Assembly (NCBI GenBank): GCA_947034885.2
Contig: OX344753.2
Span: 28,970,347 to 29,034,346, forward strand
Direction of reading: 5' to 3'
DNA from: Thuidium tamariscinum
Taxonomy: Eukaryota; Streptophyta; Bryopsida; Hypnales; Thuidiaceae
DNA length: 64,000 nucleotides
Shown: positions 10,457 through 63,996 of the stretch, piece by piece
How the letters are laid out: each line of letters starts with the position of its first letter
How positions within the stretch are numbered: the first letter of the stretch is position 1
The notes under the pieces: model-generated
The model's database searches: none
The model's input: only the letters and a program-made list of their open reading frames with translations
Told to the model about the DNA's origin: nothing
Made by a program: the position numbers and the translations under genes

Positions 10457-10657
10457 TGGAACTCTCCCCTAGCCTGAAACCACCATAGAAGCATATATGT
10501 TCATATGTTTTTTATAAGCCTTTGAGGAAATTTTAGTCTTAGAAAATTTAGTACATTGTTTGAAAATTTGTGTTTTTATTGCACTGGAGAGTACTTACAG
10601 TATTGAAAAAAAATTAGAAACTATACTAATGTAATGGCCACAGGAAAACACGATCTT

Positions 10658-40874: not shown

Positions 40875-41011
40875 GTAAGCATTGAACATTGATATTGCCT
40901 GCCTTTTTTTGTATGTGATTTTCTTCATACCTGATTGTGACTCTTCTGTGGTTTAGCTCGACTCGAGCTAAAGTAGAGAACACCTCTAATGTGGACGGAT
41001 TGTGATATCAG
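40875..41011 (+). other. Intron 1 with a perfect palindrome
   Basis: A GTAAGC donor at 40,875 and a GATATCAG acceptor at 41,011 join two frames in phase (..NKNKFN / EFEKAVY..). The intron contains a perfect AGCTCGACTCGAGCT at 40,955-40,969. Confidence 0.8.
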
Positions 41012-42355: not shown

Positions 42356-42490
42356 GTGGGTCTATTTCTTATCTATGCAGTAATAGCCTTCGCTTACTTG
42401 TGTATTGTTATGTCATTCAGCTCGAGTCGAGCTAAAATGTGCTTGCTGTCATTAGTGAGTTATCTAACGATTAATCTCTTCTTGTTGCAG
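42356..42490 (+). other. Intron 2 with a perfect palindrome
   Basis: A GTGGGT donor at 42,356 and a TTGTTGCAG acceptor at 42,490 bound 135 bp with no stop codon. It is nevertheless called an intron because its translation is a Leu/Ile/Val-rich run that breaks the methyltransferase-like motif. It contains a perfect AGCTCGAGTCGAGCT at 42,419-42,433. Confidence 0.7.
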
Positions 42491-43737
42491 ATGAGTTGCG
42501 TCCACGTTTACGCTACTGGGCTCTTAGAAGAGTCACCTTACTGGGAAGAGCTCTGCTTGAAGGCCATGACATTGGACAAGGCAGACTTTCTGGAAAGCGG
42601 CTATCAAAAAAAGTCGCAAGATGTTGCCCCTGGTTCGCAGTCCGAGCCTTCATTATCAAAGAGGAAACTGCGATCCAGTCAAGACTCGCCTGGCATGAAA
42701 CAGAAGCGAAGGGCGGCTCCTGTCTTCGAAGACTTTGAGGAGTTCTTGGATGATGAGGAAGACGAGCCCGACGACGATGTTGAAGAATTGGGGCTCGACG
42801 AAATAGCGACTCCAATGAGTTGCCTACGATCAGACGTCCCCGGGTCCGTGGCGTCTTCAATGCTACCGCCAGCTGCTCAAACGCCGAAGACTCCTACCGA
42901 TGCTAGTCAGCTAGAACGTAAGAGGAAGAGGGACAACATGGCAATCGTCATGAAGCAGATGGAGCAGATGCAGAAGTTGCAGATCGATCAGATGAATGCG
43001 CAGAACGCCCAGAATGCGCTTCAGCATAAGAAGCAGGAGCTCGCCGTAGCGCAGCTTCGGGAAGAAAGAGAGAGGGACTGTATTCAGCTAGAGAAGGACC
43101 GCATGGAGCAAGCAAAGGTGAACGAAGCAAATTTGAAGATTCAAGAGCAAAATGCGCAGTTCATGCGGGAGCAAGCAGAGGCGAATAGATTGGAGAAGGA
43201 GAGAGACAGGGCGGAGCGAGATAAGAGCAACCAAATTCTGGCCTACTTGTTAGACAAGGCTGGCATTGTGCCGTTGGCAGCAATTTCTCCAGCCTCTGAA
43301 CCTACGCAGCTGCAGATATCGGGGCGGCCCTCAACATCAAACGACAGCAATGTGGCGAGTCCTCAAGTGGCCATTAATGTTGCGCCGCCCCTCTCGATGG
43401 AATCTCCGGTCGCAACTCCTCTCCCTCCCCCTCTTGATGAGCAGTTTCCGGAGACCTCAGTCGATAGGGAGCTGAATGTCATACATGACGCGCGCAACCC
43501 CCCTCTGGATGACGAGTTTCCGGAGACCTCATTCGACAAGGAGCTGAATGTCATACATGACGCGCGCAAGCTTGCCGAGCAAGAGGGAACTTCCGCGGCG
43601 GCAGATAGTGTTGTAGTTGGGCACAACCTGGCCGTGGATGCTTCCGAAGCGGAACTCGGGAGCGCTTCCCTTCCCACTGAAGATCCACCAGCAGGTTGTG
43701 CCCAATGACAACTTGGTTTTTCTTTCTTTGTAGTTTT

Positions 43738-44350: not shown

Positions 44351-44358
44351 GTCATAGG
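44351..44358. repeat. 8-bp target duplication, left copy
   Basis: GTCATAGG immediately precedes the CAGGGTTG end of the giant hAT element and is repeated exactly at 61,615-61,622 after its CAACCCTG end. Eight bases is the standard hAT duplication length. Confidence 0.95.
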
Positions 44359-44379
44359 CAGGGTTGCTTCCGTCGCGTC

Positions 44380-44830
44380 ACGTCCGTCCGTCAGGATGTC
44401 CGTCCGCTGACGTGACGGGGAGCCGAGCGTCCGTCAGGATGAAATTAACGACAGAATCCGCGACAGAGGATGAAAAATCTTGACAGCGGTCGTGGACACC
44501 CTCACGGACGACCTCCGTGGACGGCCTGGAAGGACGTGCTCGGTGGATAGTTCCGATGGACAGTCCTGGCTGACTGGACGGCTTGGATGGACACTCTGGA
44601 TTCTGCGGACGGTCCGGATCCGGTGGACGGTTTTAGGGGACGGCCCGCTCAGACGATCCGCGGGGTATGGACGGCCCCGATGGACAGGCTGTCTAGTGGA
44701 CGGCCCGGACGGACGCCTCCAGATCGACGGTCTGGGTACGGTCTACGCTTGGGAAGGACGGCTTGGATTGAAAGGAACGTTGGACGGCCTGGGTTCGATG
44801 GACGGCTTGGGCTCCGTGGACTGGAACTCT
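44380..44830. promoter_or_regulatory. Left subterminal GACGG array
   Basis: About 450 bp in which GGACGG, GACGGCC and TCCGTC words recur every 10-25 bp, giving a local GC content far above the surroundings. No gene starts here, so the array belongs to the element end. Ac transposase binds AAACGG-type subterminal words; by analogy GACGG could be the binding word of this transposase (inference). Confidence 0.8.
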
Positions 44831-44979
44831 TTATTTGTAAGACTTAAAAGTCTGAGTTCATATTCGCAATCAAAATTTTCTCACTAGTCTATGTGGTTTA
44901 ACCATCTCTAAAAAAATAATTTCAAAAGTTTTGTATTTTAGGCCTTCCATTAGTTCCATAGTCTAAATATAATATATAT

Positions 44980-46265
44980 TCTGTATTTAAAAAAAGAGTG
45001 TTAATGGTTTGAATCAAAAAAATGGAAATGGTTTGAATGAAAATAACGTTAATGGTTTGGAATTGTGAATAAAAAAAAATGTAAAACTGGTTTTGAAAAA
45101 AAATGTGTTAATTGTTCGAATAAAAAAATTATGGAAATGGTTTGAATTAAAAAAAAACGTTAATGGTTTGAAATGTTGAATGAAAAAAAATATAGAAAGG
45201 GTTTGGAAAAAAATGTGTTAATGGCTCGACCCAAAAAATTTGGAAATGGGTTGGGAAAAAAATGTGATTAGGGTTTGACTAAAAAAAATATGGAAATGGG
45301 TTGAAATGTTGGAAAAACAAATTTAGAAATGGTTTGGAAAAAAAATGTGTTAATTGTTTGACTAGAATAAATATGGAAATGGTTTAGGGTGAAAAAAATG
45401 GCCAAGTTTTGAGTAAAGAAAAACGGTAATGGTTTAGGGTGTTGGAAATAAAAATATAGAAATGGTTTGGAAAAAAGATGGGTTAATGGTTCGACTCAAA
45501 AAAAATATGGAAATGGTTTGAATCAAAGAAAAAGAAAAAAGAAATGCTTTGAATAAAAAGAAAGTTAATAATTTGAAATGTTGAATACAAAAAAATATAG
45601 AAATGGTTTGGAAAAAAAATGTGTTCATGTTTCGACTAAAAAAAATATGAAAATGCTTCGAATAAAAAAAAAATGGAAATGGGTTGAATAAAAAAAATTG
45701 GGAATGGTTTGAATAAAAAAAAAGGCAATGGTTGGAAAGGTTGGAAAAAAATATATAGAAAGGGTCGTGAAAAAAAATGTGTTAATGGTTCGACTAAAAA
45801 AAATATGGAAATAAGTTGGAAACAAAATGTATTCAGGGTTTGATTAAAAATAATATGGAAATGCTTTGAAAAAAAAAACTTTCATGCTTTGAAATGTTGA
45901 ATAAAAAACATTTAGAAATGGTTTGGAAAAAAAATGTTAATGCCTTAATGGTTAAAGCTCAAATTAGAAATAGTTTGAATCAATAAAATGGGAATGGTTT
46001 GAATAAAAAAGAACGTTGATGGTTTGAAATGTGGACGACAAAAAAATATAGAAATGGTTTAGAAAAATGTGTTCATGGTTCGACTAATAAAAATATGGAA
46101 ATGGGTTCAATCTAAAATATGGAAAGGGGTTGAATCTAAAAAATGGAAATGGGTTAGGGTAAAAAAATGGTTATGGTTTGACATGTGGAAAAAAAATGTG
46201 GAAAAATGCGGTGGGAAAAAATTGGGTTAATGGTTTGATTAAAAAAATTCGAAATGGTGGGAATA
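44980..46265. repeat. A-rich minisatellite, plus orientation
   Basis: Degenerate units of about 30-35 bp, such as AAAAAAATATGGAAATGGTTTGAA, alternate with ATGTGTTAATGGTTCGACT. The array is about 1.3 kb. The complement of the same units forms the array at 52,370-52,740, so the two arrays are inverted relative to each other inside the hAT element. Confidence 0.85.
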
Positions 46266-46738
46266 AAAAACAAAAGCATATATACTTGTGGCATATGTAA
46301 AAAATAGAATTTTGGCATTTTTTAAAAGTAAACTTAGAAAATATACTTTAAGTGAAAGTATGGCATTGGATTTAAATGAACTTGTTGCACATACATTTCA
46401 AGCAAACATATTGAGTATTCTTTTCATTTGTTCATGGTTAAGTTTTCTGTTTAAGTGTTTAACAGATAATACAGTTGTACGAGAAAAATGAAAATGCTTC
46501 ATTGCCCAAAAAATGTACTTTTGCAACATGAGCAATAAACGCTCGTAAATGGTCGTCATAGCCAAATACTATTTACAATACTAATATACTATACATCCGT
46601 CTAATGGCCTAACTCATCACCAGAAGGTATTCAACCTTGTTCTGGTTCTACAATGCCTTTGGCTATACTATTTCTCAAAAAATCTTGCAATCCTTCTCTA
46701 GATTGCAAACTGTTCAACATAGCCACTATGGTCCGATC
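46266..46738. other. Spacer, 3' of the RING gene
   Basis: AT-rich, no gene. It probably includes the 3' UTR of the minus-strand RING gene. Confidence 0.4.
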
Positions 46739-49039
46739 TTATCGATCGTGCAAGTAGGAAGAAATGGATGACAACATTTGCACCTCATTGAACGTAGTGT
46801 CTTCGATGAACCTCATTTGTGCCTCATAATCCAGGTCTTGGAGTATTCCGATAGGGTTTCCGCTGGAGTCAAAAACCACATTCTCTGGATGTGGTCGGCG
46901 CACGAACTCCTCTCGGTCCAAGTCCCAATGGCCACCAGCAAGTTGGCCAAAAAATACTCGCCGCCCTGGATCGCCCGCACCAATCAGCTTCTTGCACACC
47001 TCCGTAATCTCCGCATCATCGATCCACGGAACGTCTTGCACGCTGCGCATGGTGAGGTGTCTACTGTCATGGCTCCACTTCCACATCCATATCATGTCAT
47101 TACCCCAACTCCCTCTATTCTCATTGCCAGGCAAGTTCTCTTCGTTTAACTCAAAGTGCGGGGGCATGTGATGCTCCAACCCAAATTGGGCGTACAACCG
47201 CCGGTGCAAAGGAGCCTTGCATTGCACGCACCGCTTTCTTGTGACCATGTGCGGAATGAGACATCCGGGGTGGTACATATGTCCACACGTTCCAAGGCTC
47301 CATCCACCCTCGGGCCCAAACGGTTCCATGCAAATCATGCACGTCGTTCCATCCTTCACAAACACGGGAACTGTGGGCCACAGTAAGGAGGTATTGCCTT
47401 CTCTATCCACGGGCCCGTATCGGTGTCTCGCGGTGTTGAATTGGAAGTCTAGATGCGGATGCCCGTCCCAATCAATGCTTGCATTATCGCGATTTGTGGG
47501 CAATGTAACTGGAAACATGTCCTCCAGTCGGGCCTACGATGTCAAGCCAAAATAACGTTGGCTACCATCTCTAAATTCTGCAGCTACTCTCCTGACCTCA
47601 CGCTGCAGTTGCGCAACCTCGTTCATAGCCAAAGTGCATGCCAATCTCATGTTGCTCATGGCAAGCAACCTTTGCTCCCGGTCAGTTGCTGTTTGGAGCA
47701 ACACTCTATCCTTCATGGCATTTACAAATGCCAACTCGTCCTGTAGTCCCTCCAAAGCCGTTGATACAACCTCTATGTTGGCCTTGGCCTCATTGCACTC
47801 GCCCTCTGCACGCTCCACTCGTGCCACAATGGCATCGTACGCCACCCGCTCAACGCTAATGAACTCTTGGCCCAACGCATCTGTTGATTGGTTTGCCGCA
47901 TTTGAACTCTCACCATGAAAATGTGGTGTTGGGAATATACCACGAGGCCGCACTTGGCGCACCGTCAACGGGTCAACTGGCTCAATTAGACCATATGTGG
48001 TCCGCTCCACGACCTCATCCAATGGTGGAGTGCCATCCATGCTTTGGCGACGTACACGTTCAAGCAAGTCAATGTTACTTGCTAGTAACTTAGCATTCGT
48101 TTCCTCCAAAGCCTTCACCCGTGCGTTGTGGGCTTGTACCTCCATCTCGTGCCTTCGCCCAGCTTCTGCACCATCCTCACGCAGCTAAATCACCAATGCA
48201 CGTAATGCCTCTAATTCCCCATTCGCTCCAAATACTTCATTAATTGTCGTGGACGGGGGAATTGGGTGAATGGCGAGTGGCATGGGCTCGCTTGGACCAG
48301 CAATGGGCGCCTCCAATTCGGGAGCCACCGGGTTTTGTTCGTTGGCGCCTTGTAGTGCATTGTCGACCTCCATGGGGTCCGCGTCCGCCGCTTCGTCCCG
48401 TTGTGCCCAAGCCACTCCTTCGCCCTCCAACTGCACTGCAGGATTGGGTGGAATTCTACGGCTTTTAGTAGGGAAACGGCCACCCCGTTGTTTTGCTGTA
48501 TACGTGTTCCAATCCATGTCCTTGCCCAAAAAAACCTCCGCATACGCCATTTGACACAATGCGAGGGTCCCATCCTTCTTCGAGAGGGTCCCCCAGAGTG
48601 CCAATGCCACCTCGGTCAACCACTTCTTGAACACCGGGTGTATGCAGTACTTTATCAATGCAACGCCAGATCGCACTTGCGTCTCATTTCTCTCCCGTGG
48701 AAAATGGCGGTTGATGTGGGCCCAGTCCACGTATGCCCGACATGTGGTGCGGGTCCATGGCTCAAGCACATGTTCCCACCTGGGTGCGGCCAAAACTTCA
48801 CCAGTGTTGAAAGTCGCCCAGTCTACAGTGTTCCTGTTCCCACGACGCCTCCTGTGTGGGGGTTCACCTTCATGGGTCACCATCGCCTGGTTTTCTACCA
48901 CTAGGGGGTGATTTGCAGGAACTACCACCTCCTGGTTTTCTACCACTGGGGGGTGATTTGCAGCAATTACCACCTCTTGGTTCTCTGCCATGGGGGGGTT
49001 CTCTACATGTAGTACCATCTCTTCAGGGTTTAAGGCCAT
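46739..49039 (-). pseudogene. Coiled-coil and RING-H2 cargo protein with two amber stops
   Basis: One reading frame of 767 codons is interrupted by TAG at 48,185-48,187 and 47,534-47,536. Part 1 has three tandem ENQ-V-V-ANHPP-type repeats and an Arg-rich stretch, then a conserved-looking segment (TWGTLSKK-like, about 48,500-48,750) of unknown family. Part 2 (48,184-47,537) is mostly predicted coiled coil. Part 3 contains a RING-type zinc-binding pattern (CMICMEPF ... TCGHMYHPGC ... RCVQC, about 47,200-47,350), as in E3 ubiquitin ligases. The Met at 49,039 is preferred since GTGTGCAG, a splice acceptor, lies just upstream. The promoter side has a TATAAAT near 49,240-49,246 and a GACGG array at 49,290-49,830. 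Q-to-stop change (CAG to TAG) would explain both breaks. Role within the transposon is unknown; a RING ligase could act on host silencing or on transposase stability (speculation). Confidence 0.75.
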
Positions 49040-49284
49040 AGTACCTGCACACAATGCCACAACACGGTATGTATGTACAGATGACTATGATCTGCCTCCT
49101 GTTGCGTGAGGGCAACTGGAATGTGGCAAAGCAATAGCCAAATGCTTGACTTCCTCCCGAATTGCAATGCAAAGCTTTTTTCAAGCTAGGACAGAGCAAC
49201 TCAAGAGAGAAAGCAAGGTTCATTGCGGCTGAATTTGGGATTTATACTCCCCATTACCAAGGCTCGTTAGGAGTGTTAATTTGT

Positions 49285-49830
49285 GTCTAATCACATCGCC
49301 ATGCACCACCTGGAGCCGTTGATGCGGACGGCCATCGACGGTTGGGGCGTCCACGGAGTGTCGACGGAGGTTCGGGAGGTCGTCGACAGGTTCGGGATGA
49401 CGTCACAGAGGCCGTCCACAGGTCCGGCGCCGTCAACGAGGGCGAAAAACATCATGAGTTCGAAAATCCATAATTACTCCGCCGAATTACAAATTCGATG
49501 GCCCAAAATGGCTCTTCGTGACGGCCTGCCTGGCTCCGGCCCGAGGTCCTGGACGGCCCAAATTCGTTGCGGACGGCCTGCCCAGGTCGTGGACGGATTC
49601 CGAACGGCCTGCCCAGGTCTTGGATGGGCCCGTGTTGCTGGACGGTTTTCTGGACGCCCTCCGTCCTGCCCAGGTCCTCGACGGGCCCGTCTTCCTGGAC
49701 GGTTTCCTGGACGCCCTCCGTCCCCGTGACGGCCTGCCCAGGTCCTGGACGGGCCCGTCTTCCTGGACGGTTTTCTGGACGCCCTCCGTCCCCGTGACGG
49801 CCTGCCCAGGTCCTGGACGGGCCCAATAGG
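49285..49830. promoter_or_regulatory. GACGG array at the promoter of the RING gene
   Basis: Dense GACGG/GGACGG/CCGTC words at 49,310-49,440 and 49,515-49,820. The second part contains an imperfect repeat of about 60 bp built on GACGGCCTGCCCAGGTCCTGG and CTGGACGCCCTCCGTC. It lies upstream of a TATAAAT (minus strand, 49,240-49,246) and the RING gene start. It resembles both element ends and the other cargo promoters. Confidence 0.75.
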
Positions 49831-50206
49831 TGGCTACAATATATACCCTCAATTTCAATTAGGCAGGTGGAATCCAATTAGACAGCCAAGATCCAATTAC
49901 GCAATTGGTATTCAGTGAGGCAGTTGAGATGCAATAAGCTGTAAGACAGCTGAATTTTAATGACGGTGAACTGGTGAAGATTGCCAATGCAGTACCTGTA
50001 TACTGTAATTTTTATTGGAGCTCAGTGAGTTAACATTCACAGCTTGCATTTCTTTTTAAAAAATTTTGGGATTCATTCATGATTTTGACAAGTGTGTGAC
50101 TCATTCAGATCTTGTATTTCTTTTTAAATTTTTTTGGGATTCATGATTGTGACAAGTGTGTTAGCCATGTATGCATGGTAGGAGGCTAAGATTCCACTTA
50201 TTTAAT

Positions 50207-50905
50207 TAGCCTATTTCTTGAAATTCAACAAAACATAATAAATTTGAAATTTGGAATGGGAATTTCTCATAGAACATGAATATTCTATGACATTCCAACT
50301 TATTCCTATTTTTTTTGTTCCCCCCTTTACGTTGATTTTCAATTTTATAGGCCATTTTGAATTTAACCGAAAAAATGGCAAGGTAGCCTATTTCTTGAAA
50401 TTCAACAAAACATAGTCTATTTGAAATTTGGAATGGGAATTTCTCATAGAACATGAATGTTCTATGACATTGCAACTTTTTCCTATTTTTTTTGTTCCCC
50501 CCTTTACGTTGATTTTAAATTTTATAGGCCATTTTGAATCTAACCCAGAAAATGGCAGGGTAGCCAATTTTTTGAAATTCAATTAAATATATTTAATTTC
50601 AAATTAGGAATGAGAAGTTGTCATACAACACTCATGTTCTATGACGTTCAAACTTATTCCTATTTTTTTGCTTCCCCTCTTTACTGTGATTTTCATTTTT
50701 ATAGGCGATTTTGAATTGAACCCAAGAAATGACAGTGTAGCCTATTTTTTGAAATTCAACAAAACATATTCAATTTCAAATTTGGAATGGGACCTTGTCA
50801 TAGAACATGAATTTTCTATGACATTTAAATATCTACTATGTTTTTTAGTTCTCCATTCAAATTGATTTTCAATTTTATGGGACATTCAAAGATTAACTGA
50901 TAAGG
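50207..50905. repeat. 177-bp tandem repeat, about four copies
   Basis: Units start TAGCCTATTTCTTGAAATTC at 50,207, 50,384, 50,561 and 50,738, exactly 177 bp apart. Each contains GGAATGGGAATTTCTCATAG and TTATAGGCCATTTTGAAT-type phrases. The sequence is unrelated to the satellite at 30.5 kb, but the period is the same. It is noncoding. Confidence 0.9.
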
Positions 50906-52369
50906 TCGTCTCAACAAGTATCTAACAAACTATTAAGCATTATATCTTCATTTATCAACATAGGCTAAAAAAACATATTTTGGTTATACAATGTCCTAAG
51001 CGAGGTGATTTTTTAAATGAAATTACAAAACGAAATGGAATTCATGTGAACTCTTGTCTTTAATTTATTTGTACCACTCTTCCTTAAATTTTCACCTATC
51101 AAAAAAATTCCGAAATCTGATCTCAATGCCACCAAATAGTAGACAAAATTTTTAACAAAGAAGAATACAAATTCTATAGTTATTTTTTTTTATTAAAAGT
51201 ATATAGTGAAAGAAAATATGTAAGTGGCCATGCGTTTATTTTGAAATATTCTTATACAATGGCATAAATGATTTTTGTAAAGTAAACATGTAACACTGAA
51301 ATTCATTTTTCTAAGAGAAAAGTTCTATATAAAATTATTTGCATTTAATGAGACTACGATTGTTACGGCCGATATAAAGGTATTAGCAAAATTAAACAAC
51401 AATTTAGAAATACAAAAAATTCTAGGAAGAATTTAGCATTCAAATAATGAAATAGTATTAAAGTATAAGAAAAAGTAGATTGATCATCTTTTGTAGGATG
51501 CTTAATCACCTTAAATATCCAATGGTAGATTCTTGAACCTGTATTTGTCAATAAAATTAAAGTGACTATAAAACTTTGTCTATTTCAAAATATTTGAGAA
51601 CCCTTGTCATTTGTGCTACCTTGTCCATTCCTTGATTGAAGTTGTTAAATTAGTTTTTGTAACTCCGTTCCAGAGTTTAGGGTTTAGGGTTTAGGGTTTT
51701 TTGAAATCATCTTATCCAATCAAAAGAACAACTATGTCAAAAATGAATTCAGAATTTAAGATTTTTTTAATATCATATTTCAAAATTTTAAAAAGGAATT
51801 TTAAATTAATAAATAGGACCTAAAATAGCATAGTTTTTAAACACAATCGGCTTATTAAATTTCCTAAGTTTTCTTATTATATAAATGAATGTGAATATGC
51901 TCTTGTGCCTTTAAATTGGTTTTAAATATTGCATTAGGATTGTATACTATAGTTTAATTTCTCTATTGTGTGCTTTGTTTTCTTATAAATGGTGAAATAT
52001 AAATAGTTGTAGCTTTGATTTTTTATTTTCAAATTCTTTAGTGGCACAAAGATAGCATATGCTGTGCGTTTCACCATGTTCTTAGTTCATCAAAATCCTT
52101 GAAGCTAACATGTTTCCTTGTATACAATGTTTTTGATCTTCTCAATATTTTGTAATTATGAAATGTAGAAAAAAAATAGGGTGTTCAAAAATAGTCCTTC
52201 AAAGAATTTACAAAAGAAAATAGGGTACTCTAAAATACACTCCGGTAGCTTTATTTCTACTAATATGGAGGGAAAAAAACATGAGAAGGGCATAAATACC
52301 CCCCCATTAAATACCCCATTATCGCACGTGGTTACCAAAAGATAAGGGGTGTGAACCCCCCGAGTCTGT
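50906..52369. other. AT-rich spacer within the giant hAT
   Basis: No gene seen. A TTTAGGG telomere-type run (51,676-51,699) is present. Confidence 0.5.
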
Positions 52370-52740
52370 TATTCAAACCATTCCCATTTTTTTTATTCGA
52401 ACCATTTCCACATTTTTTTCCAAACCGAACCATTTCCATATTTTTTTAGTCGAACCATTAACCCATTTTTTGGTCCAAATCCCTTCTATATATTTTTGCC
52501 CAACACCTGAAACCATTAACGTTTTGCTTTATTCACACCACTTCCATTTTTGGGATTCAAACCATTTCCCTATTTTTTTTAATCGAACCATTAACACATT
52601 TTTTTCCAACCCATTTCCACATTTTTTTAATTCAAACCGGGCTCGACAATTTCTTTCCAAACCCTTTCTATATTTTTTTGGGGTAACTTTTTAAACCCTT
52701 TGACGTGTTTTTTTGGTTCAAACCATTAACACACTTGCGG
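52370..52740. repeat. A-rich minisatellite, inverted copy
   Basis: Units of TTCAAACCATTTCCATATTTTTTT and TCGAACCATTAACACATTTTTT type are the reverse complement of the array at 44,980-46,265. It is shorter (about 370 bp) and degenerate. Confidence 0.85.
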
Positions 52741-54119
52741 AATTCTAACTCTTTCTTCTAGGGTTTATCATACACTTCGGCAAAGAGAGGATTAGAGTGG
52801 TTTAGGGTTCCACAGAAGAGTCTAAATTCTGAAAATTGGTTGGTGCCCACTAACAGAGTCTTGCTTGCCAGTGCCCCCGTCCTAAACTCCTAATTAGTGC
52901 GTTAGTTCACTTATACTTTCATAACTCATAGTTTCATAACTCATAAGTAGAGTACATGACTACATGACCAGAATATTATGCAATATAGTAATATACTAAT
53001 ATGTACATGTAGTACTAATCTAATTTCCTAAAAAATATATGCCTAGTCGGATGGCTCCCGAATTTAAAATTGAGAAGTTTAAATCCCTACATATCCGTAG
53101 GGCAACTTCTAAAATTTAGGGTCCATCACTTCAGCCATTCTCGATATGAGCTGAAGCACTGGAAGGCAATGTAAAATTTTAGCCGTGTACATTACACACT
53201 ACCCACCAACAAGTTTAGGATCATCCAATTCTGCCATTGAAACGAATTTTGCATAATATAATCAAGCATACCAAATGTGGATTTCACATAAGTCAAATTT
53301 AGTTTTTGGTGAATTGTTTCATTCAAAACTCATGGTTTAGCATGATAATTGATTATAAAACATTGGTGATGAATTAGCATTAATTTGCAAAGAGGAGATA
53401 TGTAGGAAACATCCATATGCACATCTTTCATACCAAAAAACATCCTAGATTCCTAGTAAGTTACAACAATATAATTGGGTTGAAGAATTCAATTAGGCAT
53501 TTTATATGACCCCATTTTGTAAAATAGATGTATGTACGCTTGAATTAGATTTAGGCAAAGTCATTGTACGGAAATGATTTAAGTTCCTCAAGGAGTTATA
53601 GTGTGACCATCAAATAGCAAATGCTAATTAAGCCGGATTAAATTATTAAAATTAGCTCCTATTTCCTAAATTTGCGGGGGAGAATGAAATTAGATGGAAA
53701 GGGAGGAAGTAGAGCTTTTTGACGACACAACTGAGAACGGATACGCATCAACCAAAGAGGTATGTGTTTAGACTAGAACCAATAAGTTTAATCATTTCAT
53801 GTTATTTCTTTTATTTACTTCAAAATTTGCAAAATTAGATTGACGCTAGGAAAAGAAAGATCAATTACCGAATACAAATTATAATGCACTTCTTAAGTTA
53901 TTAAATTACTAAACTAGACATTTTACCCTCATTTACGCAAAAGTAAAAAGGAACTTAAATCCTAAACCCTAAACCCTAAATCCTAAACCTTCGGTTGGGC
54001 AAGGGCTTTAGGCTGGGTTTTTGACCTTCTCAAAATTCAGTGTCAGCCCTTAGATGGGCGGTTTCTGGCCTGTTACCTTATTACCTTGTAGAGGAATTTC
54101 AGTTGCACGAGGCTTGCCA
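52741..54119. other. Spacer upstream of the kinase-like gene
   Basis: AT-rich, no gene. A decayed palindrome-like sequence (CTTCAGCCATTCTCGATATGAGCTGAAG) lies at about 53,129-53,156, and a CCCTAAA run at 53,961-53,989. Confidence 0.5.
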
Positions 54120-54510
54120 TTAAGTCTTCGCTGGCATCTTCACCGCCCTGTGCTTCCCCGACGATCCCCTTAATGGTTCAGAATTCCCGGGATGCCCTGT
54201 GGGGTCGCGTGGACGGCCTCGTTCCACAACGGACCCCCGAATTCCCAGGACAGCTTGTGCGTCCCCTCGACGGTCTCGCAGTTCCTCGACGGTCCCCACG
54301 ACGGCTTTGAAATTCCCGGGACGGATGGGGTGTCCCGTTGACGGCCTCATCGTCCTCGACATTCCCCTTGACGGCTTCCGAATTCTGAGGACGGCCAGCG
54401 GCCCAGCGCGTCCCCTCGACGGTCTCGGAGTTCCCGACACCCCTTGACAGCTTTCGAGTTCCCTGGACGGATCGGCCGTCCATGCGACGGCTCGCCAACG
54501 ACTATATAAG
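54120..54510 (+). promoter_or_regulatory. GACGG array and TATA box of the kinase-like gene
   Basis: GACGGC/GGACGG words recur about every 15-20 bp with CCCGGGACGG-like and TTCGAGTTCC-like spacers from 54,140 to 54,490. TATATAA follows at 54,503-54,509, placing a transcription start near 54,535. The layout (array, TATA, short leader, leader intron, ATG) matches the hAT transposase gene. Confidence 0.8.
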
Positions 54511-54704
54511 GTGGGCCAGGTCCCCCACTCTGCACGAGTCTCTCCTGCTCTGACGGTGCTCTCTTGCCCTGGATTGGTTGCAGTCCTTGCTTGGGAGCGC
54601 GGGTGCTTGTGAGGAGGCTCGGCTGAGGAAGGGGGGATAGTTTTTACATTTGTGAGTACTGAACCCTAATTCCTTGGTTTTACCATCGCATATTATTTTT
54701 CAGA

Positions 54705-56366
54705 ATGGACGGGCGAGGTGCGTCGAAGCGCAAGGTTGATGCGTGGTTTTCAGGCATCGGAGATTCTGTTGGTAAACAGTCTCCAGAATCCATTGACTGC
54801 GTATCGGAGGCAGTATTGGCCGGAGAAGGGGTCGGTGGTGTGGCTGGAGGAGAATCTTCGGGGGCCAAGAAAAAAAAGAACAGGCGGAGGCACAAGGCTG
54901 CGAATACAGACGACTGGCCAAGGAAGGCTGCGACCAGGAAAGTGCAGGAAGTGGCATTGGATTTTCTGGAGCAATATACGATTGCTCAATTGAATACGAC
55001 CTATGTCTCGCGTGGATTGCAAGGGGTGGAGACAATAAAAAAGAAATTCACCCACATGTTTTGGACAACAATGGGCGAGGATGAGTGGCTTGAAGATCAC
55101 ACAAAGGAACACTTCCGTCGTTGGCTTGACGAACAAGTGCAAACTTGTGTTTTCAACATCGCCCAAGTCGCCGCATCGGTAAAGGGCTTCAAACGAGATG
55201 TAGCGTCGAAGCAACAAGCATTGCATTTGTTGCACAAAAAGGTGTATTGGTGGCATGATGCAATGCGAGCGCTGTCTTCCAGCAATATCCGCTCTGCCCC
55301 ATGGTTTCAGCAAAGCCAAAGCTTGTCCCTAGGCCAAGCGGGTGCAGGAGGAGTGGTATTTCTCGAACGAGGAGTGGTGGTGGTTCCATTGTCAGGCCAC
55401 AATAAACAAGGGGGGCACGGGAGGGTGCGTAAAGTGAGCCTCCAAAATTCAAGGCACATTCCCCCCACGATGGAATTGGCGGGCAAGACAGCCCTATATG
55501 TGGATCAATTGAAGAAGTCGCAGGAGAAGTTGTCCATCGAGGCTTTGGTTTGTCCATGTAATCATCCAGGGGTCATAAAATTTTTTGCTATAAATGACAT
55601 GACCATGGAGTGTTATTCTCAATGGTGGAATGGAGGAACATTGGGAGCCATGTTCGCCTTGGACCACAAAAACCGAGATTATGCTGAGATCGGGGAGCTT
55701 GCCTACCATGCAACTCCACAGACGATGCAAGAAGCCAAAAGACTCTTGGCTTATCGTAGAAACCGCACCGAGCTTGCATGGGCGTTAATTTGCATCGTGG
55801 ATGCGGTGCAACAATCTTCGGTGCTCCACAACAACATCACGCCAGAAAACATCATGTTGCATTTTCCGAATGATGATGGGCGAACAGTGTGGATTGGACT
55901 ATGTGATTGGGGAATGGCTAGTCGTATCAATGAAGAAACCCATTCTTTGTACCAGTTTCAATGTGGAAGCCAAATGCGGGCTACACGTAAGAAACGTTGG
56001 TGGGTGGCCCCTGAATTGATGTATGTGACTGGAGAGGCGGGCACTTCGGTATCCCCCACTCGCGTAGATAGGGCACCATGTGTCAGTATACATACGGACG
56101 GATTTGCTGTTGGGAAGCTTGCAGAGAGGATATGGAAGAAAGACCGCGAAAATACGGAAATGCTTCTCGACCATACAGCGTTTGGTACATTTCAAGCCAC
56201 ATTGGGCGAATTGTGCAAAGAGGACCCACTACAACGACGCACGGTTACGTACGCCGTGGGACGAATTAGTGGCACCCCCTTATTTTGGACTCCACCCGTG
56301 GATTGCTACCGCGAGGCCCGCAAGGAGCAAGCACTTCTACAAGAACAAGCAAGGAATGAAGATTAG
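54705..56366 (+). CDS. Kinase-like cargo protein, catalytic Asp missing
   Basis: One clean 553-codon ORF, the only uninterrupted gene of the element. The N-terminus is basic (KKKKNRRRHK), followed by a helical region (about 70-200). A protein-kinase-like domain spans about residues 235-500: a degenerate glycine loop (GHGRVRKVSL), SIEALV..CNHPGVIKFF (helix C and strand 4), LHNNITPENIML in the catalytic-loop position (about 372-384), CDWGMAS for DFG (about 398) and VAPELM for APE (about 434), then HTDGFAVGKL. In the loop, His and Asn-Asn replace His-Arg-Asp and Thr replaces Lys, so phosphotransfer is unlikely although the DFG Asp remains; this is a probable pseudokinase. An acceptor (TTTTTCAG) one base before the ATG marks a leader intron, with a donor at 54,652 or 54,609. 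Confidence 0.85.
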   Translation: MDGRGASKRKVDAWFSGIGDSVGKQSPESIDCVSEAVLAGEGVGGVAGGESSGAKKKKNRRRHKAANTDDWPRKAATRKVQEVALDFLEQYTIAQLNTTYVSRGLQGVETIKKKFTHMFWTTMGEDEWLEDHTKEHFRRWLDEQVQTCVFNIAQVAASVKGFKRDVASKQQALHLLHKKVYWWHDAMRALSSSNIRSAPWFQQSQSLSLGQAGAGGVVFLERGVVVVPLSGHNKQGGHGRVRKVSLQNSRHIPPTMELAGKTALYVDQLKKSQEKLSIEALVCPCNHPGVIKFFAINDMTMECYSQWWNGGTLGAMFALDHKNRDYAEIGELAYHATPQTMQEAKRLLAYRRNRTELAWALICIVDAVQQSSVLHNNITPENIMLHFPNDDGRTVWIGLCDWGMASRINEETHSLYQFQCGSQMRATRKKRWWVAPELMYVTGEAGTSVSPTRVDRAPCVSIHTDGFAVGKLAERIWKKDRENTEMLLDHTAFGTFQATLGELCKEDPLQRRTVTYAVGRISGTPLFWTPPVDCYREARKEQALLQEQARNED

Positions 56367-56578
56367 AGAATAGTATTTTAGTGGCAATGTAATCATAGAC
56401 GTACCTTAGTACTTGCTTTTACCACAGTATAGTCCACGAACTTTGCCTCACTGAATTTTGTACTAACTCCTTTTTGAAATAAATATATGTAAATCTTTTT
56501 GTTCCATTCGAGTACGATTCCGGTGAGTGGATTTGTGAGTAGTTCTATCCCTTCGCAAATTTTGGACTTAATGCCATG
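56367..56578. other. 3' side of the kinase-like gene
   Basis: The short AT-rich sequence between the kinase-like stop codon and the nested MITE probably contains the 3' UTR (AAATAAATATATG near 56,478). Confidence 0.4.
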
Positions 56579-56582
56579 TTAA

Positions 56583-57504
56583 CCCCTAAAGGACCACGGC
56601 CGTTTTTCAACCCAAAACCACTCAAAACTGCCATTTTTGTTCCATTCATCCATGAAAAACAAAAAAACTAAATTTTTAGAATCTAACCATAGGATCTTGA
56701 ACTTTACTTAACTAAGATGATGTGGTGAAAATTTCATGAAGTTTGACCGTATAGATAGGAAGATATGAGCATTCAAAGTTGGAAAACAAAGTTTTCTTAA
56801 ACTCTAGTTTGCAACTTCAAATGACTTTGTCCTCCATTTATGTAATCTTTTTGCACTACAGACCTTGAATTAAAAAAAAATTTTATTGAGAAATTGAGCT
56901 AAGAGCTTAGGAAAAAAAATTCACAAAATAAAGACTTTTTTTCATTCTTTAAAAAATTGTCAAGTAGATGTAGGTCCAAGATTGAAAGAAAAACTAAATT
57001 GCAAATATCTCATAGATGGAATTGAAACACAATAATCCCAATGGTGAGATTGTTCTAGAAAACAAAATCAACCTTGTCCAACAATTTTTTTTGAAAAATT
57101 GTGAAAATTGCATTCACAAATGAATGCTATAAGTTATTTTTTCAAGAAGATGCTTAGATTGCCCGAAAAACAAGATTGTTCATAACTTTCACATTACTAA
57201 TCCAAATGGAATGAATCAAAGCTTTACTTGTAGACAAAAATATAATCTATAAGAAAAAAAAATTATTTTTTTAATTTTGAAGTTTTTGTAGATTTTTTTT
57301 TCTGCCCGGCAACATGAAAATTATGTTTACGATGGCATAACTTTTGCTCCCGGTCACCAATTGAAAAAAAATTAATATTTCCACGGAGCTAATCAGTTTT
57401 TTTATCTTATGTGAAAATTTCAATAAAATTCATTGAAAATTGAAGTCACAAGTACCTGCCCTAATTCTTAAAGTTCCCCGAGGGGACTCTTGGTCCTTTA
57501 GGGG
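56583..57504. mobile_element. piggyBac-type MITE nested in the giant hAT
   Basis: It starts CCCCTAAAGGACCACGG and ends TTGGTCCTTTAGGGG, inverted repeats of 14 bp, and is flanked by TTAA at 56,579-56,582 and 57,505-57,508. TTAA duplication with CCCC ends is the piggyBac signature. It has no coding capacity. Its right half matches the relic at 14,500-15,020; its left part matches 6,860-6,910 inside the piggyBac-type element with the transposase, a likely source of its mobility. It landed in the gap between the kinase-like and hAT genes. Confidence 0.92.
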
Positions 57505-57889
57505 TTAATTCAATACTTTCAATCATTTTCTCCATATTCCAGATTATATTTGTTTTCTTGTACAGGGCAAAATCCATAATGATCTCAAAATATCCAAGCA
57601 TATAGGTAACCAGCTTCGAAGAATGAATCCAAATTTAAGAGTATAGAACACATGGCAAACGACAAAGCAAATATTTCCATTTCTTGGGACAAATATCCAT
57701 AAATGGATCTGTTGTTGTGTTGTAGAATTTGTGACATGTGAAGATAAAAAATTTCTACCCATGCGCCTTACATGAGCACAGGAAGCATGGGTAGTATTTA
57801 TAATTAATGCCGAATTTCACATGCAAGGTATTCAGCCTTACACAATATTACATAAGATGACATGGAGACATTTTTTTCCCTAGATGCTC
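57505..57889. other. Spacer, 3' of the hAT transposase gene
   Basis: No gene seen; probably the 3' UTR of the minus-strand transposase gene. Confidence 0.4.
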
Positions 57890-60800
57890 TCAATGTCTTG
57901 CACGTGTACGATTAAGAGCCATGCTCCTTGCAGCAGCCTCTCGCGTGGTTGCTTGATTGTCTTGAGGTGCAGGTGGAGGACCTCTACGAGTCCCTCTATA
58001 ATCACTATCTCCCGGAACTTCACCATCTTCACCTATACTAGGACCCATGGATTCATCATCATGATTGGACGTTGCCCTACCGACTTCGCTTGGTGAGTTG
58101 TCAGGGCTGTCTGAGCCTTCACCTACTATAGAAGCCAATCTGCGGATTGTTCGCCCCCCTACTCCATCTCCAGCGATATCCACATTGGGCTCCGTCGGTC
58201 CAGGGAGAAGACCTTCGCGGAGAAATGGTATACTCGCCGCTTCTTCCCTTCTTAGCCTTCTACGTGTTCTTCTAGTCACACGTTCGTTGGTAGGGCCTTC
58301 TTCACGTGGCCGCGGCCGTCGATTAGTAGTGCGTGTAGGCGGTGCAACGGGTTGTTCTGAGGATGGAGGTGCATTCCTTCGCTCGGTCATATTTAGAGTT
58401 GAGAAGAGACCGGCCAATTGTGTACCGACTGATGGAGTTTCTTGGTTGGGGCGGGCTCTAGAAGATGAAGGCCCTGCTGAATTTTGGACGGGTGGATCAT
58501 CCAAGCTAGGCACTTGTGGTCGCACGCCAATCGTGTCTCGACACAATGTGCGAAAGTCTATCTCGACACCAATGGGGGATCTGTGGCTACGAGTGTTCCG
58601 CGCCACTGGGGGATCTGTGGCAACGACCTCATCTTCGCCTTGTCTTTCTACCACAACGACATGTTCATGTCTCCGGGTACGCATTTCTTCTTCAATCGGC
58701 CTTATAACTGGCGAAGGTGGGGCTTCAACCCCTTCGTTTTGATTTCCACCACTTGACCCCGCAATCGATGTACGTGGCATCCATGACGGACTGCCATCAT
58801 TTCCCCCGTTGTCATTTCCACCCTCGTCTCCCCCATTGTCATTTCCATCCTCATCTCCCCCGTGGTCATTTCCATCATTATCCGCGCCATCAAAGTCAAA
58901 TACGGACTCGTCAATTAGGGGACCCCTTTCTTGCCTTTCACCCAAAGGCCGAAATGGTGGATCATCATCGCCATTGGAACTGTCGTCTAAGTCATCGTTG
59001 TTAGCGTCTGACATAACCGAACCACGATCCAAGCCATCTGATTCGGTTGTCATGGAATCTTCAGACAACATGTTCTCAGTGTACCATCGTGCTGCATCCG
59101 CCGCACCCCTTTCCCTGAGAGTCCTCGAATTGGTATAAATGTAAACCAATTCCTCCGCGCGCTTAGATGTCAATCTGTTGCGAGACTTGCTGTGGACAAA
59201 TGAATACATGCTCCAATTGCATTCGCATGAAGATGCGGAACATACTTGTGCGAGGATCCTTCTTGCAATAGGTGCAAGCGTATGAGCACCGGCTCCGAGA
59301 AGATCCCACCATTCATGTGGCTCCAAATTCAAAGTATTCACATCGGGAAGTCCAGCGAACATGCCTCGGCGGTCTCGAAAGGATTGGTACTCAAACAAAG
59401 CAGCTGCATATCCCAACCCTCCAACTGCCAATTTGCGTAGTACTCTAAGAATGGCCTCCTTTGCCTCGTTATCGTCTATTAGTACAATTTCATCAAGGAG
59501 GAATGGGTTGAGCAGGGCAGCTGCGTAGTGCAAATCGGTCTTCATCAAATCCCATCGTTCGTAAAACGCATATTCAGCACGGTCCGCATAATTTGCCTCC
59601 AATGAAAATGGTCGATTCCTCAAAGCCAAAACATGCTTTTCTAGCTTCTTCATCACAATCCATGCTTTGCCCATGACTGGATGTTTTCCATCAAACTCTC
59701 GAAGAGCCACCAACACAGGCTCTACCATATGCACGAAGTTGAGACACCTCCTCCAGAACTCATCCTTTCGAACCCTACGTCGAACCTTTTCTGCCTTATT
59801 GTGTATTGCAGCGTTCGAGGACCTCACATATTCGTTCCACTGCGGATCATGGACTGTAGATTCCACGGCTTCCTTGACCTCGGCCAAACGCTCGATCATG
59901 AGGAACATGGTCGCAAAACGTGTCTCAATGGGATTCTTCAACATGAGATTAGGAGAATGTCGTCGGAAAATGGCGAGTGGCATGTGATGCGTACGAATGA
60001 ATTTCACGATTGATTTTGCTTTCTTCACCATTTTGACCACCCAAAGTTGCTTGCCCCAATCTTCAAGTAGAAGGTCAAGTGCATGCGCGGAACAACCTTG
60101 GAAATATAGGTGAGGGAATTCGCGAGTAATTTGAGTACCAGCCAAACGCATGTTTGGCGCATTGTCTGTGCAAACTTGCACCACATTATGTCCCCCCATC
60201 GCGTCAATCTAATCGATCATGCGATTAGCCACATAAACAGCGTCTTTGCTTTCACCTGTAGTGTCCACCGATCCCAAAAATACTTCTCCACTCGTGCACG
60301 ACAACATTACATTGATCAATGGCCGATGGGTGACATTGTCCCATCCGTTAGAACATATAGTGACACCGTACTTGTGGATAGGCCCCCTTGTCTTCTCCGC
60401 TACCAGTGCAGCCACTTCCTCCTTTGTTGATGTCATGAGCTTCGTACGTATGGCATTGTAAGGTGGAGGTTTGTAAAGAACTCTGGACTCGGAGGTTGAT
60501 TTCACGGCATCCACAAAAGCGGGGTGTTTCACCACATTGAATGGGATATTTGCTTCGTAGAAAAACTTCGCCCACTTCTTGTCTAGTACTTGCTTTTTGG
60601 ATGTGTCCATCCCTTCTTGTACGGATAATTGCCTCAGCGGTCGACTATGGGTCGAAGAAGGGACAGGCGCCTCTGATGATCGAACTTGAGAATTTTGGCC
60701 CAAAGTATTTCCTCCCCCTCCACTAATTGAGATTGAAGCATTGGGTAGTTCTTGATCACATACCACCCTCGTTGGATTCGATGACGGTGATGTCACTTCC

Positions 60801-61051
60801 ACATCATGTTCCTCTTCGTCTTCGGAGACCGTAGGAACATTCCCCCCACAATTGAAAAACATAGCCTTCACTGCTGCACTGGCCTTGTTGCACATTCTCA
60901 CTCTGGGGAGGGTGTCATTTCGTCTATAACCCAAGTGGAAAAGCAAGCGATCCTTGCGGTAACTAATCTTCGTTTTGCAGAATTTGCATTCCACTTTCCC
61001 ATCCTCTTGTAGCCTGTACCAGGGTTCCCATTGTGTCCTCCCCCCTCCCAT
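57890..61051 (-). pseudogene. BED-finger hAT transposase with one amber stop
   Basis: Encodes the transposase expected to cut the CAGGGTTG ends. One frame of 1,054 codons has an in-frame TAG at 60,209-60,211. Order: a BED-type zinc finger (VECKFCKTKISYRKDRLLFH, about 60,910-60,990); a DUF659-type region (TICSNGWDNVTHRPLINV, then VVQVCTDNAPNM); and the C-terminal dimerisation domain (EWWDLLGAGAHTLAPIA ... SKRAEELVYIYTN, about 59,130-59,330). A long disordered tail of about 380 residues follows, with GNDNGGDEGG repeats and Pro/Arg-rich parts, unusual for hAT enzymes. In the CSDGW-type motif the expected Asp is Asn, which would remove a catalytic residue. The start at 61,051 follows an acceptor (TTTGTGCAG, exon from 61,077). 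A leader intron of about 58 bp reaches the GTAAGTG donor at 61,135. This copy is probably inactive. Confidence 0.9.
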
Positions 61052-61264
61052 TGCTCCCACTGGTTCTTCACTTGAAACTGCACAAACAAAACAGGTTAGT
61101 ATTCTGTTTGGATGTGATGTGGAAATAACACTTACTGCTTTTACAGCAAGTGTTCCTCCCACACACTCTTCTTGGACTTCACTCTAGTGCAATGGCTGTG
61201 TGCCAACCAGGTCATAAGAGCAGAGATCAACAAGGAAAAGTGACCTTCAAATACACGGCTTGTG

Positions 61265-61614
61265 CTATATACTGTGAAGGCCTGGCAGCAGTCGTCCAGT
61301 CGACGGCCTGGCCGTCCCCGCAGCGTGGACGAACTCTAGACGCCGTGACCGTCCGCTGAACAGAAAACTGTCGAGGCGACGGCTTGGCCGTCGCGCCTAA
61401 ATCCTAAAGCCGCGGACGCTCTGGCCGTCCACGCGACGGCCAGCTGTCAAGGCGGCCGACAGGCCGTCTGCGCGTTGTCGACGGACTTCATCCGCGCTGT
61501 CGACGACGCCGTCAGCATTCGGGACGGCCTCTGACGCGTCCTGACTCGTCACGACTGACGCGTCATGACATCCGGACGGGAAAAGCCCACGTCACGTCGG
61601 GATAGACAACCCTG
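61265..61614 (-). promoter_or_regulatory. hAT transposase promoter and right subterminal GACGG array
   Basis: A TATA box (TATATAG on the minus strand, 61,265-61,272) is followed by about 320 bp dense in GACGGCC/GGCCGTC/GCGACGG words up to the CAACCCTG end. The transposase promoter therefore overlaps the element end, an arrangement that lets a transposase repress its own gene by binding the end (inference). Confidence 0.8.
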
Positions 61615-61622
61615 GTCATAGG
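61615..61622. repeat. 8-bp target duplication, right copy
   Basis: GTCATAGG directly after the CAACCCTG end, identical to 44,351-44,358. Confidence 0.95.
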
Positions 61623-62564: not shown

Positions 62565-63996
62565 CTACTCGAAACGCAACGTGTTCGGTTGCAAACCTAT
62601 GAAATCAGCATCATTGCCAACTTGTAAGACATTTGGAGTTGTCTTCGCAAAAGAAGGTTCCTCGCGTCTACCTCGAACATCTGTTCGGCACACTACTTTC
62701 CAACCACACTTATGTATGTCGTTTGAGAAAAATACTTGTTGACAATGTAAAGGGAATGCAAATGAATTGGCGTGCACTTTTCCATCCATGTGGTTGAAGT
62801 TCGCTAGGGTGAATCCATACTTGTCTCGAACTATATTCGGTGATCGCGTATCCCGTGACGCTCGAACCCAATCACATACCAACACAGTGGTGCAGTGATT
62901 GCGATAATCCAATTCAAGGATTTCCTCAATGTACCCCACATAATCATCTGTGGTCTCTGTTGGCCTTCCATTCAGAGTACCCCACTGTAGCTCACGTGTA
63001 AATGATGCCACGACATACGAATCCCTTGTCACTAGAGCTGCTTCTGAACTTCGAACTCTGAAGTGTACTCCGAAACAATACATTTGTCAGTGTGAGTTCG
63101 CATGCCGTTCAGGCGGTTCAATATATTGTAAAACATCGGGATCCACATCTTCACCTGCATTACATGCTTCGTTGATGTGCTTGCGAAACCAATCCGCAAA
63201 ACACGGCAACTCCAGCAACTCCACTAGATACCGAAGGCCTCTTAGACCATGATGACGTCTACTTTCAATTCGAAATACCTCACGCTGCTCCCATCTGAGC
63301 GCTTTCGCTGTTGCATATAGCCTACAAATGTAGAACGTCATATCGAATTGAGAGCATGTCAACTAGTCAAACTAGCAATGCAATGTACAATTCACTGTTT
63401 CAAATGCCCGCCTTGATAGCTTACCGTTTCCTATGGTCATCCTCACTTAATTTTATTTGTTCATCCGTTGCACTTTAGGTTTATAAATTGTGACATGAAA
63501 CTGAACGGTTCAAAACTTCATGAAGTGTATGGAACAACTATTTCGTTCTGTGCAGGAACAGCTTTCATGGTACCAAACTTTGCGTCATGGACATTACAAT
63601 TTCAGCCATGAAGTGCAATATGACAAAAGACATACAATTTATTAGACACACTTACTCGCGCCACGGTTGCAAGCATGCAGCATTGTCCAAAACAAACGTA
63701 TGTGCATAGCTCCGCATTTCTTGGGACATCTTGCGCTTCCTTGCCTGATGAGGAGATAAAATCTCGTCATTAATGATGGCGTCTTCCATGCCATCCCACA
63801 TGCGCTGTGTGGTGCCTCTATATTGCTTCATGTACTCCGTACAAAAACCTAGTGTGTCTTCCATTCGGTACCCTTCGGCTATACTTCCCTCTGGATGTGC
63901 GTACGTTCGAACATAATCTTTCAATGTCTTCATGTACCTCTCGATTGGGTACATCCAACGACAATGTACTGGACCACACATGAATAATTGTTGCAC
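62565..63996 (-). pseudogene. CACTA (En/Spm) transposase, 3' exons, truncated by window edge
   Basis: Three exons read on the minus strand. The first (about 63,996-63,653) encodes RWMYPIERYMKTLKDYVRTY ... HPEGSIAEGY, the hallmark DUF4218 segment of Tnp2/CACTA transposases; it ends at a GTAAGTG donor. A small exon near 63,425-63,470 encodes SEDDHRKR before a GTAAGC donor. The last exon (from about 63,330 down to 62,565) contains a DUF4216-like segment (CFGVHFRVRSSEAALVTRDS ... VGYIEEILELDY ... VLVCDWV). An in-frame TGA at 63,087-63,089 separates SH from QMYCFG, suggesting decay (CGA to TGA). The catalytic N-terminal part lies outside the window. This could be a full element whose far end is beyond 64,000. 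Confidence 0.85.

Follow-up and report, generated by a model that had tools for sequence, protein, structure and literature searches.

A 17,256-bp element at positions 44359-61614 of a 64,000-nucleotide stretch of the Thuidium tamariscinum genome (assembly GCA_947034885.2, contig OX344753.2, positions 28,970,347 to 29,034,346 of the forward strand; the whole stretch is referred to here as the window) was found to be, with a probability of roughly 85%, a decayed member of a hAT family of cut-and-paste transposons that are large, of autonomous type and present in many copies. The unit of approximately 17 kb, containing a hAT transposase gene and two accessory genes for a RING-H2 protein and a kinase-like protein, moves as a whole, makes 8-bp target-site duplications and has short relatives that consist of little but the ends. 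The first-pass annotation, made from the sequence alone, had described a cargo-carrying giant transposon of the hAT superfamily, and this was supported by copies with the same genes and by an empty site. Since this element has multiplied repeatedly as a single unit, its extra genes seem to be functional components.

The element lies inside an exact 8-bp duplication, GTCATAGG, read directly on the left at 44351-44358 and on the right at 61615-61622 (neither assigned a strand). The limits originally proposed, 44351-61622, include both duplications and proved accurate to the base. The left terminal inverted repeat, CAGGGTTG (44359-44366, + strand), is matched by the right one, CAACCCTG (61607-61614, - strand), which reads CAGGGTTG inward; the eight outer bases agree exactly, as do 11 of 20 over a longer stretch. 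Among the 3,310 CA[AG]GG...CC[CT]TG pairs in the window, identical 8-mer flanks were found once, against 0.05 expected, and that single case was the pair of element ends. Members of the hAT superfamily have target duplications of 4-8 bp, terminal inverted repeats of at least 8 bp and a hAT transposase (PMC6027215). The element family has 8-bp duplications, terminal repeats of at least 8 bp, a transposase with a C-terminal dimerisation domain and, for one copy, an empty site. Its length is unusual for a hAT, as had been claimed, at 17 kb compared to 4.6 kb for Ac (PMC3260210). The ends and the duplication of the window copy had also been called intact, which they are; the transposase and RING frames of this copy are broken.

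Other copies were searched for in the genome (363,211,507 bases in 19 contigs) by means of the end sequences. With up to three mismatches, the 30-mer starting at the left repeat was found at 304 places and the 30-mer of the right end at 341 places, and the backwards control gave 0 for each. A search with the first 300 bases yielded 312 preliminary candidates. Of these, 40 were scored; their identity was 97-100%, and the match began at the exact first base of the element in 22 and, apart from the window itself, no more than 4 bases from it in all. Ten copies were fetched, nine of which were full-length (16.7-17.2 kb), had the same order and kept identical outer terminal bases. These nine matched the window at approximately 90-98% by segment, except around 50.2-51.8 kb, where the segment 50208-51833 had no long match and other or shorter sequence was present. 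The tenth, split by an insertion of approximately 15.6 kb, was recovered on the RING side alone. Of twelve further copies that were sampled, 11 had the RING gene where it was expected, and in the twelfth a nested insertion of 3.7 kb had displaced it; the kinase gene was seen in 11 (two cut by the fetched stretch) and was not reached in the displaced copy. Counting partial genes, 22 of 22 other copies contained the RING gene and 20 of 22 the kinase gene, the remaining two not having been reached. Near-identical copies were found on many contigs and formed a star-like tree. The RING and kinase genes lie inside the copies examined, and the opposite outcome, in which the cargo would be confined to places outside hAT ends, was not observed.

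For 100 listed exact left ends (from contig C1 to part of C5, the window copy not among them), the nearest right end in the same orientation was at 15.5-17.3 kb in 36 cases, at 14.9 kb in one and at 18.8-30.9 kb in eight, 45 being long in all; the spacings of 18.8-30.9 kb are likely nested insertions. Another 33 paired at 0.36-0.93 kb. The right ends compared were two exact variants and a few others, hence the 22 left ends without a right end within 31.5 kb. Among the 78 paired ends, every spacing was either up to 0.93 kb or 14.9 kb and more. Extrapolating the share of 45 in 100 to the 304 left ends would give approximately 140 long copies. Six copies of the 0.36-0.93 kb class were read and were motif-rich, with 8-bp duplications that were exact in five and had one mismatch in the sixth. 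Short relatives occur on C1-C4 (e.g. L075-L080), and the six that were read match the long form at the ends.

These distances bear on the alternative of a chance juxtaposition of two or three smaller hAT elements with a coincidental outer duplication. The internal motif blocks described below do resemble subterminal arrays and might be relic ends, and two weak internal pairs of end-like 8-mers (two mismatches) have flanks that match at 7 of 8 positions, although the number expected in the window at this laxity is 5.3. Yet no internal pair of like ends had an exact duplication, nine other full-length copies were arranged alike (seven of them flanked by exact duplications of their own), the sizes between 0.93 and 14.9 kb were empty, and a copy on C4 had an empty site. 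A chance meeting is consequently very improbable, and its two-element form, which the original proposal had itself named as a refuting outcome, is excluded by the nine full-length copies and the size gap.

The 8-bp duplications of 20 long copies were exact in 15, all different from one another, had one mismatch in one and were lacking in four. The 20 comprised the window copy (exact), the nine full copies (seven exact) and ten further copies (seven exact, six of these ten being read at the ends only); the split copy was left out. When the flanks of the 17,136-bp copy on C4 were joined with one CTGGCATG, they were found uninterrupted at 15 paralogous places, with 90-98% identity over 178-180 bases. 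All 17 candidates of this search, made for one copy, were scored, and only the C4 place itself was split. An empty site with a single 8-mer, suggested beforehand as a check, was thereby obtained, and the whole 17,136-bp copy was therefore inserted in one event. An old segmental duplication with hAT-like ends arising by chance, rather than an active-type element, would fit the broken transposase and RING frames of the window copy; its probability is close to negligible in view of the ends, the private duplications, the empty site, the short relatives, the near-identical copies on many contigs and the star-like tree.

The transposase gene occupies 57890-61051 (- strand; Pfam scan and copy comparison). 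The internal hAT transposase that had been noted is real: in the window copy DUF659 was matched in two halves together with Dimer_Tnp_hAT (5e-8), and the frame is interrupted by a single in-frame stop at 60209-60211. In other copies the open frame was 1044 amino acids long, and an open copy gave a full-length DUF659 match (6e-36) and Dimer_Tnp_hAT (1e-9). The frame was open in six of ten copies, the window included. A TATA-like box was found at 61271, between the right-end motif block and the gene. DUF659/hAT was the only transposase-type match when the six main frames of the element and the three genes of one open copy were scanned against Pfam. A PDB sequence search with a piece of the transposase gave no match.

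The first accessory gene (46631-49039, - strand; Pfam scan and copy comparison) encodes a RING-H2 protein with a coiled-coil-like part, 787 amino acids long in other copies. In the window it has three in-frame stops (48185, 47534 and 46739) and a 17-nt deletion. The RING finger was matched above the Pfam cutoff in the window copy (6e-7), and in another copy it scored 26.9 bits against a cutoff of 27.3. The gene had been annotated as RING/coiled-coil; Pfam confirmed the RING part, and the middle part of the protein may be coiled-coil-like, as its sequence and predicted helices of low confidence suggest. The frame was open in 15 of 21 copies (window included, displaced copy left out), and a TATA-like box at 49246 lies between an internal motif block and the gene.

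The second accessory gene (54705-56366, + strand; Pfam scan and copy comparison) is open in the window and encodes a kinase-like protein of 553 amino acids. The kinase-like domain agreed with the earlier description, with a match that stayed just below the Pfam cutoff. A TATA-like box was found at 54503, between an internal motif block and the gene. The HxD loop reads HNN in the window and HND in 15 of 19 copies, and was not caught by the extraction pattern in three. A pseudokinase, considered on account of the seeming loss of the catalytic Asp in the window copy, was withdrawn for the family given HND in 15 of 19 copies, for which reason the kinase of the family may be active. The loop of another copy, vlHnDitPENim, aligned with viHkDlkPENil of RIPK1 at an E value of only 0.35. 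In the PDB search there was no match at 0.01 for the window kinase and none better than E 0.35 for the kinase of another copy. The frame was open in 12 of 19 copies, window included; three copies were left out beforehand (two cut by the fetched stretch, one not reached), and one was counted as open without seven bases, perhaps where the fetched stretch ended.

All three frames were open in four of the nine full-length copies. Selection was estimated from counts of synonymous (S) and nonsynonymous (N) differences, with the substitution spectrum of the noncoding segment 56450-57850 as the neutral expectation. Between the window and the nine copies, S:N was 22:22 for the transposase gene (omega 0.37, p=0.001) and 17:17 for the kinase gene (omega 0.40, p=0.006). 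When the window and C1_49.9M were compared to 17 copies, that is, between subfamilies, the kinase gene gave 13:12 (omega 0.37, p=0.011). For the RING gene, variants shared within the main clade gave 14:15 (omega 0.43, p=0.019). One-copy variants were near neutral for the RING gene (omega 0.87) and the kinase gene (omega 0.93), which supports the chosen null; near-neutrality of such differences is expected after insertion. The one-copy variants of the transposase gene had an omega of 0.53 (p=0.013), and this class is therefore not neutral for the transposase. The substitution counts, small as they are, show that the transposase and kinase genes were under purifying selection during the spread of the family, and for the RING gene the indications of purifying selection are mixed.

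These counts bear on the alternative that RING and kinase are host genes captured as passengers, without a role in the element, as in Pack-type elements. Capture of coding DNA is known for hAT elements (PMC8903248), the constraint on the RING gene is weak, and frames were not open in 6 of 21 copies for RING and 7 of 19 for the kinase. Set against this are the constraint on the kinase gene, which is similar to that on the transposase gene, the long and apparently single-exon form of both frames, each preceded by a motif block and a TATA-like box, the presence of RING in 22 of 22 and of the kinase in 20 of 22 other copies (two not reached), and the absence of any 3-7 kb form among the 78 paired copies. 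Genes carried as mere passengers are thus considered unlikely.

Short GACGG/GGACGGCC motifs were found to be concentrated in four blocks, none assigned a strand: at the left end (44359-44850, 36.6 GACGG or CCGTC per kb), at the right end upstream of the transposase gene (61280-61614, 35.8 per kb), and internally upstream of the RING gene (49290-49840, 39.9 per kb) and of the kinase gene (54120-54510, 30.7 per kb). The density of GACGG/CCGTC was 31-40 per kb in the four blocks compared to 0.64 elsewhere. All 15 occurrences of GGACGGCC in the window lie within these noncoding blocks, and by position comparison 202 of 202 in the nine copies lie inside the four corresponding ranges. The blocks were noticed first by eye and from counts, and a scan was then defined from the two 500-bp ends alone. 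When 7-mers shared by the ends were counted over 256 window bins, the ends, 49251-50000 and 54251-54500 stood out at levels that none of 100 shuffles reached, and a weak excess was seen in 54001-54250 and in a few bins beyond the limits of the element. The number of 7-mers common to the two ends is 118, against a shuffle mean of 73 (standard deviation 13, maximum 118, 200 shuffles). In other copies the right block contains a 112-bp motif-bearing unit whose repeat number varies. By a simple geometric estimate, the chance that two blocks placed at random both lie in the 700 bp before the two accessory genes is approximately one in 270. By analogy, the GGACGGCC arrays may be the subterminal repeats of a hAT element.

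The same blocks raise the alternative that smaller motif-bearing elements fused in the distant past, for example a RING element (44.4-49.8 kb) and a kinase-transposase element (54.1-61.6 kb), so that the inner blocks are former ends and the whole has moved as a unit since. Every gene begins beside a motif block, as the transposase gene does at the true end, and an AT-rich spacer with tandem arrays lies between the two halves. On the other hand, the terminal 8-mer, with up to one mismatch, was not found at the inner block borders, and the inner blocks have no extended similarity to the ends. An origin by fusion is considered somewhat unlikely.

In the mechanism proposed for this family, the transposase, supplied by an intact copy in the case of damaged ones, would bind at both ends, to the short terminal repeats as well as to the GGACGGCC arrays, and would then cut and paste the element. 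Published descriptions have hAT transposases acting at the short terminal repeats and binding the subterminal ones, with several BED domains of Hermes at the left end and none at the right, and with cooperative binding by Ac (PMC10368747). The motif arrays in front of the accessory genes and the transposase gene could form the shared promoter or regulatory input of a small regulon, the input being either transposase feedback or protection from silencing. This reuse of the motif before genes suggests transposase feedback or a silencing protection like that of VANC21. Most speculatively, the RING protein, which would be ubiquitin-ligase-like, and the kinase might act on host silencing factors or on the transposase; a role for the two proteins as effectors is a guess. 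That the canonical autonomous form is a three-gene regulon behind the end motif, with accessory proteins that counter silencing or tune transposition as a counterpart of VANDAL/VANC, is put forward tentatively, at somewhat less than even odds.

Several results weighed against the interpretation of a coordinated, selected three-gene hAT element. The RING gene gave S:N of 30:68 between the window and the nine copies (omega 0.90, p=0.36) and 22:47 between the two subfamilies (omega 0.85, p=0.31), with no constraint visible, and kinase variants shared within the main clade gave 5:6 (omega 0.48, p=0.18). The omegas derive from few substitutions, and the p-values of the several tests are uncorrected. 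The kinase-like domain (2e-7, 31.0 bits against 31.7) was just below the Pfam cutoff in the window copy and in another copy. For the N-terminal BED zinc finger that a hAT DNA-binding domain would be expected to have, the zf-BED match at the transposase of the window copy was weak and below the cutoff (E=0.09), and zf-BED was absent from the matches at E 0.01 in the Pfam scan of the open copy. Two AlphaFold models built from single sequences had predicted local distance difference test (pLDDT) scores of 36 and 37 and were uninformative. When one mismatch in GGACGGCC was allowed, 39 of 62 occurrences were in the blocks, 5 elsewhere in the element and 18 outside it, and self-alignment revealed no extended similarity of the internal blocks to the ends, only short common words; because of these two results a single binding protein for the four blocks is not proven. 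Lastly, four of the 20 long copies had no matching duplications.

The long copies or end pairs without duplications are on C2 (520915), C1 (49927832), C6 (25347080) and C3 (26453728). The stretch at 23630-24129 of the window, which belongs to the DUF7869 region described below, recurs at 99% identity beside the hAT copy on C2. The left flank of the C2 copy lies in this repeat and its right flank has no match there, which suggests that a rearrangement may have occurred.

Other repeats were found inside the element, none assigned a strand. An A-rich minisatellite array with degenerate units of approximately 24-26 bp occupies 44987-46267, and an inverted copy of it lies at 52369-52749. A tandem array of 3.8 units of 177 bp is present at 50207-50886; a satellite elsewhere in the window (30511-33207, 15 units of 177 bp) has the same period, and no similarity between the two was found at E 1e-4. 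Short arrays in opposite orientation at 51675-51699 and 53956-53989 consist of the plant-type telomere repeat. A repeat of approximately 309 bp between the kinase and transposase genes (56981-57287) is 76% identical to 14501-14809 of the window.

Reading TAG as a sense codon, considered since three of the four in-frame stops are TAG, was rejected: TAA, TAG and TGA all end frames in the window, and the same genes are mostly without in-frame stops in other copies. An origin of the stops by C-to-T decay of CAG was dropped after comparison with the other copies. Searches of PHROGs, NCBIfam and Rfam gave no match, nor did viral contigs for three queries; in prokaryote contigs 42 and 8 stretches fitted the word pattern and none was confirmed. 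One match to the end pattern in a viral contig is an unconfirmed candidate.

The surrounding window contains further features. An open frame of 626 amino acids at 8588-10468 (- strand) matched DDE_Tnp_1_7 (4e-74), a transposase of piggyBac type; it is strongly depleted in CWG (observed/expected 0.14), and a 272-bp stretch near it (11428-11699) matches its own reverse complement at 93%. A DUF7869 gene at 21499-27828 (- strand) is seemingly split, with profile positions 2-52 at 26098-27828 and 54-192 at 21499-22233 and a 699-amino-acid frame at 23462-25561 between the halves; long terminal repeats were not found at this region. At 39462-43708 (+ strand) there is a succession of long frames for which Pfam gave no clear match (SfsA, E 0.04). 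These are TGA-ended, with two TGA in one frame, and contain INGQH, which resembles ParB-like proteins; they are perhaps another mobile-element gene. Adjoining the hAT element, a frame at 62565-63086 (- strand) matched DUF4216 just under the cutoff (1e-6), a domain typical of CACTA-type elements.

A hAT transposon is generally described as having one gene and a length of a few kilobases; here the successful high-copy form appears to be a unit of 17 kb that has two more genes. Should the accessory genes serve the element, the family is an accessible case of a cut-and-paste transposon with its own signalling proteins, and the shared motif is a direct handle on how transposon genes are coordinated and escape silencing. 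The family is experimentally tractable, given that near-identical copies are numerous, that all frames are open in some of them and that short end-only relatives exist. No multi-gene hAT element with RING and kinase genes was found in the literature search, outside of which lay most subscription papers and all preprints, and a term search showed that the word hAT is absent from the main text of a 2026 review of plant gene capture (PMC13317346).

Compared with known systems, the family resembles the plant hAT elements Ac/Ds and Tam3 in its duplications, terminal inverted repeats, transposase and short relatives that keep the ends, and Ac has subterminal repeats as well (PMC10368747). It differs from them in its length of 17 kb, its two extra genes and motif arrays that also stand internally before genes. 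Gulliver, an autonomous hAT element of Chlamydomonas, is approximately 12 kb long. The fungal ToxhAT, a 14-kb element that carries ToxA, is likewise a large cargo-bearing DNA transposon once called hAT; it was reclassified by its authors as ToxTA, a likely non-autonomous element of Tc1/mariner type with a 2-bp TA duplication and a 74-bp terminal inverted repeat (PMC12506042). The present family, in contrast, has 8-bp duplications, an exact 8-bp terminal inverted repeat and its own hAT transposase. Pack-hAT elements share hAT ends around non-transposase coding DNA, and Pack-TYPE elements are non-autonomous and contain gene fragments (PMC8903248), whereas whole frames were found here, open in 6 of 10 copies for the transposase, 15 of 21 for RING and 12 of 19 for the kinase. 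Starships are similarly large elements with a transposase gene and cargo, but use a DUF3435 tyrosine recombinase (PMC12506042, PMC11623301); the Pfam scan found a hAT transposase instead of a DUF3435 captain.

VANDAL21 of Arabidopsis belongs to the MULE superfamily, and in a VANC-type anti-silencing system a protein encoded by the element binds the motif and takes away methylation. It is likewise multi-gene, with a dense short motif in changing tandem repeats of noncoding regions (PMC5735166, PMC10398659), and the VANC21 motif is dense in its noncoding regions, including upstream of a gene (PMC5735166). The superfamily and the motif are different and no VANC-like protein was recognised in the moss element; the likeness is one of apparent working, without shared membership. 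Dense noncoding motif arrays that change by tandem duplication were found here too, GGACGGCC occurring only in the four noncoding blocks and the 112-bp motif-bearing unit varying in number.

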